Origin: Sorex araneus
Taxonomy: Eukaryota; Chordata; Mammalia; Eulipotyphla; Soricidae
Assembly: GCF_027595985.1 (NCBI RefSeq)
Contig: NC_073304.1
Span: 50,013,137-50,077,136 of the forward strand
Reading direction: 5' to 3'
DNA length: 64,000 nt
A program made the position numbers and the translations under genes. This document shows, piece after piece, positions 31,675 through 62,067 of this stretch. Each line of letters begins with the position of its first letter. The stretch's first letter is position 1. Under the pieces are notes generated by a model that saw only the letters and a list, made by a program, of their open reading frames with translations, ran no database searches and had not been told where the DNA came from.

Positions 31675-32885
31675 TCTTGTTTTTTTTTTATTTTATAAAG
31701 TAGTTCACAATATTGGATTACATTTAATATTCAAACACCAACCCCACCACCATTACACCCTCCCACCACCATATTTCGAATGTTTCCATCCTGAACCCCA
31801 ATTCCTGTCCCAAAGCAGAACTGAAATAATATATTTTGCATTGTTTGTTATGAAAAACTGCTGAAAATGCTACAAAAAAGTATTCGTAGAGGAAAGAGTG
31901 TGAAGATTATTGTATTTCACCCAGGGGCCATTAAGCCCTTCTATAAGAGATCACTAACATGTTGTTGGGACTCTGCACCAGGCTGTTTTCACTTGGAGCA
32001 CCCCAGAGGGGGGCGGGTGAGAACGCTACCCACCCCAAGGGACCCAGTCCCGGCAGCAGATCTCCACTACCCAATCACTGCCACTCTCCAGGCTGCTTTT
32101 TATAAGACACTTCCTACCCATTTTCCATAATTACACACCATATTTGATGGAGTTCAGACAGTAGGCAACAAATCATAGAGAGTAATATATATATGTATAC
32201 ACACACACCACACACATCTCTTGGAGAGCCCAGCAAGCTACCGAGAGTATCCTGCCTGCATGGGCAGAACCTGGCAAGCTACCCATGGCATATTCTATAT
32301 GCCAAAAATAGTAATGATAGGTCTCATTCCCCTGACCATGAAAGAGCCTCAAATCATTGGGAAAGACCAATAAGGAGAGGCTGCTAAAATCTCAGGACTG
32401 GGAGGAATAGAGATGTTACTGATGCCCACTTTTGTAAATCGATGAACAATGGGATGACAGTGATACAGTGAACATGTTGTTAAAGGTTGAGCCTTGTGTG
32501 CTTTTATATATATACATATGTGTATATATATATATCTGTAAAAAAATTTCCCTCTAAGATTGGTTGCCTCCTACTTTGAACTCCATCAAATATGGTGCGA
32601 AATGCTTGGAGTATGGGTGATGTGTGAAGTGTCAAGGAATAGGTTCACTAGTGGGTGAGGCTTGGCCTGAGCATGTGGGGAGCTTCTGTGAGCATGGCAA
32701 CAGTTGAGTTCTGGAAGTTTTCAACTGCCAGGGCTGGGTCCCTTGGGGAAAAGAGAGGCCTCACCCGCCCCCCCCCCCCCCACTCTGGGGCACCCTGAGT
32801 GAAACAGCCTGGCACAGGGTCCTGTGGTATGGTCACGGCGAATGTCATGTTAAGCACCCTTCTGGGAGAGAAGGACATTTGATCT
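31675..32885 (-). mobile_element. Poly-A retroposon, family X, with nested element
   Basis: Minus-strand X copy. The tail and 3' part (31,680-31,966) read 'GTAGTTCACAATATTGG', 'CATTTAATATTCAAACACC', 'CCATTAAGCCCTTCTATAAG'. After a nested composite (31,967-32,470) the element resumes at 'AACATGTTGTTAAAGGTTGAG' and continues through a (TA)n patch to the GC-rich X head (32,700-32,880). Without the insertion it aligns with 24,755-25,425. Its 5' end ('CTTCTCTCCCAGAAGGGTGC' in sense) is shared with the composite at 48-49.6 kb. I found no outer TSD. Confidence 0.65.
31967..32470 (+). mobile_element. X-RTE composite element with TSD
   Basis: A 504-bp insertion, order 5' to 3': X head ('CCAGGCTGTTTTCACTTGG', 'CCCCAGAGGGGGGCGGGTGAG', 31,977-32,110). 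Then an X body piece ending in (TA)/(CA) runs. Then a module resembling the RTE 5' region ('GGTCTCATTCCCCTGACC', 'AAAATCTCAGGAC'). Then the RTE-like 3' end ('GAGATGTTACTGATGCCC', 'TCGATGAACAATGGGATGAC', 'AGTGATACAGTG'). A perfect 11-bp TSD AACATGTTGTT lies at 31,956-31,966 and 32,471-32,481. The paralogue near 25,028 shows the empty site. There is no poly-A; the end is a short TGATACAG-type repeat, as in RTE elements. Confidence 0.8.
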
Positions 32886-35867: not shown

Positions 35868-36048
35868 TTTTTTCTTTTTTTTTTTGCTTTTTGGGTCACA
35901 CCTGGCGATGCACAGGGAATACTCCTGGCTCTGCACTCAGGAATCACCCCGGCCGTGCTCAGGGGACCATATGGGATGCTGGGATTTGAACCCGGGTCGG
36001 CCGCGTGCAAGGCAAACGCCCTACCCGCTGTGCTATCTCTCCAGCCCC
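35868..36048 (-). mobile_element. young tRNA-derived shrew SINE with TSD
   Basis: Nearly consensus, with intact CpGs ('GAACCCGGGTCGGCCGCGTG'). Flanked by ATTTCCCCTATTTCT/ATTTCCCCTGTTTCT (35,849-35,863 and 36,050-36,064). The T/C-rich tail is at the left. Confidence 0.93.
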
Positions 36049-48034: not shown

Positions 48035-48358
48035 ATTATATTTATTATCACTGCATCACTATATCACTGTCATCCTGTTGTTCATCGATTTGCTCGAGCA
48101 GGTGCCAGTAACATCTCCATTTGTCCCTGTGCGTGCTAGTGTAGCCCGATGGCATGCTGGGGCTCTTTCAGGATCAGGGGAATGAGGACTGTCATTGTTA
48201 TTGTTTTTGGCATATTGAGTATGCCACAGGTAGCTTGCCAGGCTCTGCCATGTGGGTGGGATACTCTTGGTAGCTTGCCAGGCTCTCCGAGAGAGACAGA
48301 AGCTTTTGGGGTGGTCTCTACTTGCCTTTACAGGTGTCCTCAGTCTACCGAATGTCAG

Positions 48359-48743
48359 CATTTGGTTGACTGGCGTGTTGTAACAATCTGCATGCTGACA
48401 AACACTCACCTGCCTGCATCTCTGGGCAGCCCTGGGACATCTGCGGCCTGAGGTTGATCTCCTTGAGGTTGATGGAGTGCGCCTGGAGATTGTTGAGCAG
48501 CTGGCAGACCAGGACCCTACCATGGAGGGTCTGTGCCAGGTTGAACACTTGCGCCGAGTCCCAGGTCACCTGGTGGTTGGCTGACAGCACCCCACAGTGG
48601 ATGAGGCACTGCGCACACTGCCACCACGGTTCTATGTCTGATGGTGCTGCGCCTCAGCTCGGCCAGGGCAGGTGGTGACGCTGCAGCCACCACCGTGGTT
48701 TCTCCATGCCCCACTAATGCCATTCTGTCCAGATCTTGCAAAA
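48359..48743 (-). other. segment unique to this composite copy
   Basis: The composite at 61,388-62,067 reads straight from 'GATGGACATCACCGGCTGC' to 'TTACATTCGGTAGACTGAG'. Here the same two blocks are 385 bp apart. This defines the edges of the extra segment, which contains the 204-bp VAV3 match, about 108 bp upstream of it and about 73 bp downstream. Confidence 0.75.
48432..48635 (-). pseudogene. VAV3: VAV3 exon 1-like captured exon
   Basis: The minus strand reads 68 codons without a stop, matching the N-terminus of VAV family Rho-GEFs (start of the calponin-homology domain). Visible motifs: 'VTWDSAQVF', 'LVCQLLNNL', '[15 protein letters not shown]'. The 'DSAQVF' and '[11 protein letters not shown]' wording fits VAV3 better than VAV1 or VAV2. 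The match begins exactly at the initiator codon position (ATA instead of ATG) and stops after MSQ, where I place the exon 1 boundary in VAV genes. The next bases are not the usual exon 2 sequence; a GTGAGT donor-like motif appears 22 bp further on. There are about ten codon differences and no frameshift. It lies inside a mobile element, so it is a transduced copy with no start codon and cannot be the functional gene. Confidence 0.85.
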
Positions 48744-49654
48744 CAACCATCGATATCCATCAGGAATCATGCAGAGTTTCAGCAGGGATCACGCATAGAG
48801 TTCTATGCCTGGTGTGCTGAGCTGTGCGTTGTCTAAGGCGAGATGGTGAGCTGGGTTTGGGAGAGCACAAGGGGTTTGGGAGGTATTGGCGCCATCTTGC
48901 CTCCAATAAAATTATGGAAAATTAGTAGGGAGTGTCTTATGATGTGTCGCATGGCTGCAAAAGTGGGCCCACAGTTTAGTAATATGTTCACTCATGCATG
49001 AGGCTCAGCCCAAGCAGGTGGAAAGCTGCCTGGAGTGTGGCAGTGGTTAGGCTGTGGAGGTCAGCTGTCGGGGCTGGGTCCCTTGGGGTGAGGAGGGCTC
49101 TCACCTGCCCCCTCTGGGACACCCCCAGTGAAAACAGCCTGGCACAGGGTCCGGTGGCATGGTTATGGGGGCCTCATCTTATGCTCCTTTCTAGGAGAAG
49201 CAGCTGTGAGTTCTGGAGGGTGGCTGATGAGGAGATTATCTGGTGCTGGCAGGAGGTGGGTTATGGGCATGACCCCTGGGCCGCTGGAGACTGGGGTTAG
49301 CAGGCAGAGGATCTCTGCTCCTGGTTCCTATTTAGCCTTCAGTCCAAGGTCACAAAGTTCTTCATTACCTGGGTTCTGTGGGACTTCACTGATGCATGAA
49401 GTCAGCCTTAGCGTGTGGAAAGTGGCCTGGAGCATGCCGGTGGTTGGGTTGTGGAGGTTGGCTGCTGGGGCTGGGTCCCTTGGGGAGAGGAGGGCTCTCA
49501 CCCGCCCCCTCGGGGGCACCCTGAGTGAAGTCCAGTGGCATGGCGTGGAGTCCAGTGGCATGGTTATTGGGGCTTCATTTTATGCTCCCTTCTGGGAGAA
49601 GCAGCCATGAGTTCTGCTTTATATATATATATGTATATATATTATATTTATTAT

Positions 49655-52497: not shown

Positions 52498-53232
52498 CCA
52501 GCCACAGCCATGCTCAAGGCCCCTCTCCACACATTCGGATGAGCCTCACACATGAAGGAACCGGCAGAGGAACCCAGGTGTGTGGGATCCAGGGATGAGA
52601 TCTCCAAGCCTGCTCGGATTGGGATTGGGTCTCCTCCACCCAGACCCCCCATTTTCCAGTAGCTTGGCAGCCACACCCACAAATTGCCCCTGGTGCCTTG
52701 TAATCCCATCTTTGGCCAAGATCCAGAGACTATAAAAACAATACTCCCAGAAGTGACCTCTTTTTTTTTTTTTTTTTGCTTTTTGGGTCACATCCAGCGA
52801 TGCTCAAGGGTTACTCCTGGCTTTGCACTCAGAAATCACTCCTGGTGGTGCTCAGGGGACCATATGGGATGCTGGGAATCAAACCCGGGTCGGCTGCGTG
52901 CAAGGCAAACGCCCTACCCACTGTGCTATCACTCCAACCCTGGAAGCGACCTCTTATAGCCTAGTTCTTTTTCTTAGGTAACCTGGTAAGGTACCAAGAG
53001 CACCCTTTCCACTCGGCAGAGCCTGGCAAGTTCTCCGTGGCATATTTGATATGTCAAATACAGTAACAATGATAGGTCTCATTCCCCTTATCCTGAAAGA
53101 GCCTCCAATGTGGCACCGCTGAGAAGAACGAGTAAAGAGAGGTTGCTGTAATCTCAGGGCTAGGACGAATGGAGATGTTACTGCACCTGCTCGAGAAAAT
53201 CAATGAACAATGGGATGACAGTGATACAATGA
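52498..53232 (+). mobile_element. X-RTE composite element, interrupted by a SINE
   Basis: The diverged X head and second block (52,498-52,762) align with 37,190-37,450. After the SINE comes the RTE-related module (52,985-53,160: 'GGCAGAGCCTGGCAAG', 'GGTCTCATTCCCC', 'GTAATCTCAGGGC') and 3' end ('GAGATGTTACTGCACC', 'CAATGAACAATGGGATGAC', 'AGTGATACAATGAT'). The 100 bp at 53,060-53,160 match the RTE 5' region at 58,681-58,780 at roughly three bases in four. No outer TSD recognised. Confidence 0.7.
52763..52942 (-). mobile_element. young tRNA-derived shrew SINE with TSD
   Basis: T17 tail, 'GGAATCAAACCCGGGTCGG', flanked by GAAGTGACCTCTT/GAAGCGACCTCTT (52,750-52,762 and 52,943-52,955). Confidence 0.92.
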
Positions 53233-61197: not shown

Positions 61198-61387
61198 ATC
61201 TTTAACAAAGTCAAACTGATGCCAACTATTTGAAGATGTTTCTTTCAGTTTTATTTACCTGTTGAATTTCTTCTATTTTATGGAATAAAGTCTTTGTCTC
61301 TGATTCTTAAGTTTAAGATTCCTAAAAGCCTTTAGGGTTCCCCAGAAGTGAGATCCTACAGGTGATTGATTAAGTTTCCTTTAAGTA
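61198..61387. other. unique non-coding sequence
   Basis: Short stretch between the RTE target site and the next composite. Confidence 0.4.
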
Positions 61388-62067
61388 AGGAGCATAAAAT
61401 GATGCCCCCTAACCATACCACCAGACTCCATGCCAGGCTGTTTCCACTCAGGGCGCCCCAGAGGAGGGTAGATGAGAGACGTCCCTACCCCAAGGGACCC
61501 AGCCCTGACAGCTGATCTCCACAACCCAACTGCCGCCACGCTCCAAGCTGCTTTTCACACGCTTGGGCTGAGCTTCATGTATGAGTGAACATATTCCTAA
61601 ACTGTGGGGCCACTTTTGCAACTGTGTGACACATCATAAGACACTCCCTACTAATTTTGCATAGTTATCACGCCATATTTGACTGGAGGCAAGATGGAGC
61701 CAACCCCTAGAGCTCTCCCGAACCCAGCCCACTATCTCTCCTTAGACAATGCGCGGCTCAGCATGCCAGGCATAGAACTATTGGAACTCTACGCGTGATT
61801 CCTGATGGACATCACCGGCTGCTTACATTCGGTAGACTGAGGACACCTGTAAAGTATCCCTGTAAATCACCTGTAAAGTGATTAGAGGCGCCCCAAAATC
61901 CTCTGTCCCTCTTGGAAAGCCCGACACGCTACTGAGAGTATCCCACCTGCAAGCTCCCCATAGTATACTCGATATGCAAAAACAGTAACAACAAGTCTCA
62001 CAATGGAGATGTTACTGGTGCCTTCTCGAGCAAACTGATGAACAATGGGACGATAGTGCTACAGTGC
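61388..62067 (+). mobile_element. X-RTE composite element without the VAV3 segment
   Basis: Starts at 'AAGGAGCATAAAATGATGCC', then the X head ('CCAGGCTGTTTCCACTCAGG', 'CCCCAAGGGACCCAGCCC'), then 'GGAGGCAAGATGGAGCC' and 'GACAATGCGCGGCTCAGC'. It then reads directly 'GGCTGCTTACATTCGG' where the 48-kb copy has 385 extra bases. It ends with a shortened RTE module and 3' end ('GATGTTACTGGTGCC', 'TGATGAACAATGGGACGATAG', 'TGCTACAGTG'). Apart from the missing insert it is collinear with 48,049-49,215. No TSD recognised. Confidence 0.75.

Follow-up and report, generated by a model that had tools for sequence, protein, structure and literature searches.

A Composite Retroposon Family of Sorex araneus Carrying VAV3 Exon 1 Joined, Probably by Splicing, to an RTE-Derived Element

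The VAV3 Segment in the Window and the Native Gene

The analyzed window, a stretch of 64,000 nucleotides of the Sorex araneus genome (C3:50.01-50.08 Mb), contains a minus-strand segment (48635-48432) that translates into 68 codons without a stop. Among PDB sequences, the peptide matched the VAV3 chain 2d86_A best (VAV3 residues 1-68, E 2.8e-32, 112.8 bits), whereas VAV1 chains scored only 79 and 77.1 bits. The end of the open stretch coincides exactly with that of native exon 1 (L019) at the GTAAGG donor, and its first residue is encoded by ATA, which is also the majority state of the family described below. Homology to native VAV3 (L009/L019) is limited to 48695-48431 (83%, blastn), and the insert of approximately 1.6 kb (48049-49640) is bordered by an exact 14-bp direct repeat (Table 1). 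The first-pass annotation, made from the nucleotide letters, had reported 68 uninterrupted codons of a VAV N-terminus beginning with ATA at the initiator position and stopping at the end of exon 1, in a 1.6-kb element with a perfect 14-bp target-site duplication. This observation is confirmed. The annotation had also assigned the exon to VAV3, to be tested against other calponin-homology genes, and the element to an RTE-tailed composite, and both assignments held.

Table 1. Features of the VAV3-containing insert in the window (T3, I3, I5, M5, and UNIT are module names; L093 is an RTE LINE).
Feature	Position	Strand	Evidence
Target-site duplication, copy at the 3′ end of the element	48035..48048		exact 14-bp repeat ATTATATTTATTAT
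T3 distal part, RTE LINE 3′ end (tail)	48050..48160	-	T3 199-295 vs L093 3277-3377, 83%
T3 proximal part, ~120 bp without L093 match, then RTE LINE 5′-region sequence	48159..48358	-	T3 121-200 vs L093 220-299, 82.5%
I3, RTE 5′-region sequence right after the acceptor; first base joined to VAV3 exon 1	48359..48431	-	GTGCTGCCC or mutated form in 40 copies; also behind AACAG in VAV3-free elements
Coding part of VAV3 exon 1 (68 codons; ATA replacing ATG)	48432..48635	-	translation, VAV3 match, exon-end junction
VAV3 5′UTR remnant, ~60 bp, 5′ limit ± ~10 bp	48636..48695	-	blastn to native L009/L019 and alignment
I5, module so far known only with VAV3	48696..48749	-	VAV3 next in 20/20 sampled exact I5 loci
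M5, module starting near GGAGGCAAGATGGCGCC	48750..48906	-	module map of 40 copies
UNIT, 3′-most tandem copy	48907..49230	-	module map; 32-mer count
UNIT, second copy, 81% to first, ~401 bp apart	49385..49616	-	module map, comparison
Target-site duplication, copy at the 5′ end of the element	49641..49654		exact 14-bp repeat

The flank of the window copy is A+T-rich, and an automatic search chose another, more distal A+T-rich match (15/16), so the repeat alone is not decisive here. Run on 40 copies and keeping only the best repeat of each, the same search found clear duplications in seven, 12-16 bp long and close to 5′ ends that vary between the copies, exact in L056 and L025 and with one mismatch in L036, L029, L037, L049, and L057. 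Only 15 of the 40 copies were above the local null, and some of these repeats were A+T-rich matches distant from the element ends.

The native VAV3 exon 1 was found at C8:57,892,325-57,892,528, with 96% amino-acid identity to human, no stop, and the donor GTAAGG. The peptide encoded from exon 2 onward gave four matches, at C8:57,974,146 (87%), at C8:58,064,673, and at single sites on C2 and on C1, of which the last two are taken to be VAV paralogs; intron 1 of the native gene thus spans 81.6 kb from exon 1 to exon 2. Since the window lies on C3 and native VAV3 on C8, the window is not the functional VAV3 locus, in line with what the first-pass annotation had presumed. For all its strong VAV3 match, there is practically no chance that the segment is a VAV paralog, a processed VAV3 pseudogene, or the real locus: exon 1 is present alone, its foreign flanks are common to 40 mapped copies, and the native gene with its introns is located on C8. 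Among the exons tested, amplification was restricted to exon 1. One of the 150 tblastn rows (C2:237341017, 74%) lies 21 kb before the exon of a VAV paralog and is probably exon 1 of that paralog and no retroposon copy.

Elsewhere in the window, tRNA-Ala-like stretches were detected at 35971-36043 and 52864-52936 (-) by ARAGORN, the second also by Rfam, for which this tRNA-like match was the only one in the window at the gathering threshold; both are probably heads of a tRNA-derived SINE. When the open reading frame from the window was searched against proteins, 114 matches carrying CH-type Pfam domains were obtained, many of them nameless, among which no element-encoded protein was recognized.

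Copy Number and Family Architecture

If the element had amplified after the capture, many copies of VAV3 exon 1 with the same flanks were to be expected, as the first-pass annotation pointed out, and this is what the genome contains. The 385-bp segment at 48,359-48,743 yielded 40 scored matches from 2,644 candidates, with the other 39 at 85-88% identity. Counted on both strands of the whole genome, the junction 32-mer gave 1,473 matches (≤2 mismatches), the exon 30-mer 1,764 (≤3 mismatches), and the I3 34-mer 2,275 (≤3 mismatches), and the reversed control of each pattern gave none; chance is thus ruled out as the source of the at least 1,473 junction matches.

A module map of 40 copies, a non-random sample selected by likeness to the segment or to VAV3, revealed a common order: UNIT (absent, single, or in tandem), M5, I5, VAV3 5′UTR, exon 1, I3, and T3. 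In some of these copies, 5′ modules are inverted or absent, and L041 and L027 end in or just past I3. A second view of the family came from the 20 loci heading the list of I3 matches, which were picked blind to VAV3. VAV3 exon 1 was present, whole or in part, in 18 of them, while L073 was VAV3-free and L070 truncated inside I3; because the I3 pattern was derived from VAV3 copies and is unfit for the 88-bp form of the LINE (see below), this ratio of 18:1:1 applies only relative to the shortened parent and is perhaps tilted. The junction pattern was found in nine of the 20 loci, the exon pattern in 15. Scaling by 9/18 and 15/18 of the VAV3 loci leads to totals of roughly 2,900 and 2,100, rough values given that the 20 loci are exact I3 matches and probably younger than average. 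The family may perhaps comprise about 2,000-3,000 copies.

A further family copy in the window, at 61384-62066 (+), lacks I5, VAV3, and I3. It was considered as an ancestor and rejected, as the pattern of its own junction was unique to itself at ≤3 mismatches, in a search that could miss older, more decayed copies sharing that junction. It is probably a private deletion.

The Partner LINE

The 3′ half of the composite was traced to a LINE of the same genome, whose identity was followed in one locus (L089/L093). L093, the continuation of the 88-bp form L089, proved to be an RTE LINE, in which two segments matched RVT_1 (3.1e-15 and 1.8e-8). T3 fuses the stretch L093 220-299 of the LINE 5′ region to L093 3277-3377 at the LINE 3′ end, and the 3′ half of the composite is therefore an internally deleted RTE. 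That the composite and an RTE LINE of the same genome have their 3′ end in common speaks for RTE over L1.

A 171-residue piece of the L093 reverse transcriptase is 80% identical, over 92%, to a protein of Necator americanus. Among the best 120 of 737 matches, every named one is from a nematode, with P0208 carrying no name, and the genera Necator, Angiostrongylus, Ancylostoma, Haemonchus, Heligmosomoides, and Nippostrongylus are represented; we take these to be strongylids. The stretch IVCTFNARTLAS upstream of RVT_1 in L093 is presumably the start of the RTE endonuclease, and the piece holding it had no match in Pfam.

A LINE of Sorex araneus, RTE1_Sar, was reported as worm-derived by Dunemann and Wasmuth (PMC6542046, available portion). 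Because the reverse transcriptase of our partner LINE is nearest to nematode genera which that paper names as RTE1_Sar carriers, we infer that the partner LINE belongs to the RTE1_Sar lineage. RTE1_Sar itself differs from the composite in being an autonomous-type LINE, and no host exon is mentioned in the available portion of that source.

The Exon-End Junction and Its Acceptor

In 40 of 40 copies, exon 1 stops at the last base of the native exon and is followed by GTGCTGCCCAGAGAYGCAGGCAG or a mutated form of it, which in the window copy starts with G-GCTGCCC, and never by the intron sequence GTAAGG. The start of I3 also occurs, as an exact match lacking C at -5 and -4, at 144 further sites, and of the 100 listed among them 80 read AACAG/GTGCTG (the slash marks the junction). 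Thirteen such AACAG loci (L080-L092) were compared. In eleven, the shared sequence reaches ~45-70 bp further upstream from AACAG, and in L084 and L090 just ~20-27 bp of it is retained (both by eye). An extra segment of ~88 bp follows GCAG/GTGC in ten of the thirteen and is absent in L080, L084, and L090, as it is in the VAV3 form. L121 and L122, judged from the first part of each only, share the 5′ start of the LINE copies and, like the VAV3 form, are devoid of the 88-bp segment. AACAG is a plausible splice acceptor close to the 5′ terminus of the RTE LINE and of its shortened derivatives.

VAV3 exon 1 thus occupies the place of the first ~70 nt of its VAV3-free relative, up to an AG, and the 3′ boundary of the host exon directly abuts, to the base, an acceptor that is also present in VAV3-free relatives. 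As the VAV3-free form shares the LINE's own 5′ end, we regard it as the parent. Nine odd-looking junctions were inspected, and no exon of another host gene was found at the same acceptor among them: two are altered VAV3 copies (L115, and L114 by eye), two are truncated or fused (L116, L117), and five are parental RTE (L118-L122, by eye). Among 85 acceptor-bearing matches lacking the 88 bp (≤1 mismatch), none lies in VAV3 intron 1 (C8:57,892,529-57,974,145) as a source RTE insertion; this set of parental-type matches is impure, with at least one (C1:336766123) adjoining a VAV3 exon match.

Capture by splicing, as proposed by the first-pass annotation, agrees with the exact junction of the 3′ exon end and the acceptor. 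The same junction might also have arisen by template switching of the reverse transcriptase or by DNA recombination, with all later steps being equal. The native donor CCCAG/GTAAGG and the LINE acceptor AACAG/GTGCTG share CAGGT, and a switch at this 5-nt microhomology would give the identical product; the LINE sequence ahead of the acceptor, as read from the alignment, has a poor pyrimidine tract, and non-LTR reverse transcriptases are able to jump templates (PMC8857657, available portion). However, a random switch would rarely fall exactly on the exon end within a segment of ~264 bp and opposite an AG, CAGG is shared by splice-site consensus, so that such microhomology is expected anyway, and two primate precedents have been attributed to splicing (PMC6139936, available portion). 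We consider switching or recombination quite unlikely.

The Upstream Modules

Splicing alone, following the SVA_F1 model, leaves the 5′ side unexplained, since approximately 210 bp and UNIT repeats stand upstream of the VAV3 5′UTR and the exon is internal in the element. In this part, the proposal of the first-pass annotation did not suffice. The UNIT 32-mer had 1,970 genome matches (≤3 mismatches). UNIT, M5, and I5 showed only 9-15 bp matches to the LINE L093, which is chance level. In a sample of 20 loci with an exact I5 match, VAV3 was next to I5 in every case, as shown by blastn for 19 and by eye for L097.

UNIT also occurs apart from VAV3. In the window, 31968-32471 (+) and 32635-32869 (-) carry UNIT without M5 or VAV3, the first being followed by an RTE tail, and together with the upstream part of L028 the former represents UNIT in VAV3-free RTE-tailed elements, which suggests, judging by these alignments, a second, VAV3-free composite family sharing UNIT. 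In L080, ~70-390 bases before the AACAG junction and upstream of a VAV3-free element, there is another RTE-type tail and, judged by eye, inverted UNIT-like sequence.

Candidate routes by which UNIT-M5-I5 may have been placed upstream of VAV3 are a second 5′ transduction, template jumping, and internal exon trapping. In the last case, a UNIT-M5-I5 transcript would have spliced to a cryptic acceptor in the 5′UTR, CCGCAG/CGTC, and the exon 1 donor to the RTE acceptor, so that one RNA would account for both sides of the VAV3 segment; the native 5′UTR indeed holds CCCGCAG/CGTC near the limit of homology. On the other hand, alignment homology may extend a few bases upstream of this CAG, blastn did not find M5-I5 within 4.8 kb of sequence preceding the native exon 1, and I5 was accompanied by VAV3 in all 20 loci, so no donor after I5 is available for comparison. 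Trapping as an internal exon is unlikely on this evidence.

Proposed Origin

The reading we prefer, at a probability of approximately 0.82, is that the window insert belongs to a family of non-autonomous composite retroposons, mobilized by an RTE LINE, whose founder arose when VAV3 exon 1 became spliced to an RTE-derived element and the product was retroposed, provided with upstream sequence, and amplified. The capture interpretation of the first-pass annotation is supported to this extent. An RTE-derived element would have resided on the 3′ side of VAV3 exon 1 and in sense orientation to it, with intron 1 as the simplest location. VAV3 transcripts would then have spliced from the exon 1 donor to the acceptor ~70 nt into this element, yielding the junction seen in the copies, and the LINE machinery would have reverse-transcribed the RNA into a founder in which the VAV3 5′UTR and exon 1 took the place of the element's initial 70 nt. 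The founder presumably gained M5-I5 and the UNIT repeats upstream of the VAV3 5′UTR, via a second 5′ transduction or template jumping, to give the arrangement found today. Subsequently, this form would have amplified to the recognizable junction copies described above, with their duplications and varied 5′ ends.

Age, Neutrality, and Promoter Potential

For 31 of 37 copies from the I3 and I5 samples, the median non-CpG difference of the exon from the majority sequence was 6.1% and the mean 10.5%; six copies with more than ten exon gaps were excluded, no exon row was obtained from L097 (I5 sample), L070, and L073 (I3 sample), and some misalignment inflates the mean. With substitution rates of 2.2-5e-9 per site per year, the median divergence corresponds to about 13-29 million years, in a sample that favors young copies. 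For comparison, the divergence of ten LINE 5′ regions from their majority sequence was 7.1%.

At residues 5 and 19, the majority exon agrees with the native exon (R5, A19) and differs from human, whereas at residue 53 it agrees with human (H53) and differs from the native exon (R53). Since the copies keep H53, the capture preceded the native H53R change, provided that human represents the ancestral state. Dead copies may in this way preserve an older state of a host exon.

The exon substitutions in the 37 copies amounted to 405 nonsynonymous, 201 synonymous, and 37 stop changes, against 411, 193, and 39 expected. A stricter test, which drops four copies with ≥15% divergence or too few sites, gave 234, 123, and 23 against 239, 117, and 24 expected for the 33 best-aligned copies (chi-square 0.44, 2 df). 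Exon evolution in the dispersed copies is neutral, with protein-coding selection not detected in these counts, and there was no sign that dispersed copies make protein.

The 77-copy majority sequence does contain an uninterrupted frame of 126 codons, which starts at the I5 ATG (near window position 48708, minus strand) and consists of 24 new, 68 VAV3, and 34 RTE-derived codons; counted from this ATG, the copy in the window does not keep the frame. One could imagine that the frame encodes a functional chimeric protein of 126 residues which aided the spread. However, the substitutions are neutral, a result that bears on dispersed copies and leaves a few master copies aside, only four of the 37 copies keep an open exon frame under a strict criterion that truncated or window-cut copies fail as well, and the majority sequence no longer has the start codon of VAV3. 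A contribution of such a protein is highly improbable.

The 5′UTR and exon 1 together have a GC content of 0.71 and a CpG observed/expected ratio of 0.93 in the native gene, 0.69 and 0.81 in the majority sequence, and 0.62 and 0.39 in the window copy. The captured MAST2 exon of SVA_F1 is cited as an experimentally proven internal promoter (PMC6139936, available portion). By analogy, the VAV3 5′UTR-exon 1 part might act as an internal promoter, and we tentatively propose, as a possibility below even odds, that a nematode-derived LINE lineage seeded a non-autonomous element in which this spliced-in CpG-rich sequence allowed it to out-amplify its VAV3-free parent. A transcription start site in the VAV3 5′UTR of the copies would support the internal promoter, while a start at GGAGGCAAGATGG would favor M5.

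Comparison with Known Composites and Significance

For better comparison, related systems were drawn from the available portions of PMC6139936 and PMC4432496. Among the closest is the human SVA_F1 with MAST2 exon 1 and 84 members (PMC6139936). Here, too, a GC-rich first exon of a host gene was joined to an acceptor in a non-autonomous composite non-LTR retroposon, the 5′ part was replaced, and the product amplified. SVA_F1 differs in its 84 copies compared to at least 1,473 in the shrew family, in being mobilized by L1 (PMC4432496) where the shrew family has an RTE-type 3′ end, in an exon that replaces the 5′ end and is not internal, and in its primate host. In pt_SVA_D6 of the chimpanzee (STK40 exon 1; PMC6139936), the fusion likewise lies at the exon 3′ end, and many of the 94 members have further upstream 5′ transductions; according to this source, however, its acceptor is not reconstructable from the SVA_D consensus, whereas the VAV3-free relatives in the shrew keep AACAG. 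The gibbon PVA (PTGR2-VNTR-Alu; PMC4432496) is also a composite family with a host-gene part, but this part consists of PTGR2 exon 4 and a portion of intron 4, has no exact exon-end junction in the available description, and is L1-mobilized.

Among the papers listed from open PubMed Central, none described a VAV3-RTE family by its title or the start of its abstract; the repeat may be catalogued under a name that does not reveal its VAV3 origin. Capture of a first exon followed by amplification was previously known, as far as these portions of the literature go, only in hominoids, where the composites are driven by L1 and number 84 and 94 members. The present family adds the same kind of event in another mammalian order, with a worm-like LINE and at least 1,473 recognizable copies. 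Gene prediction in genomes of this kind may yield spurious VAV3-like CH exons. Moreover, the shortened parent, the hybrid, and the source gene can be compared within one genome, and it becomes a testable question whether a captured CpG-rich first exon gives a retroposon an expression advantage.
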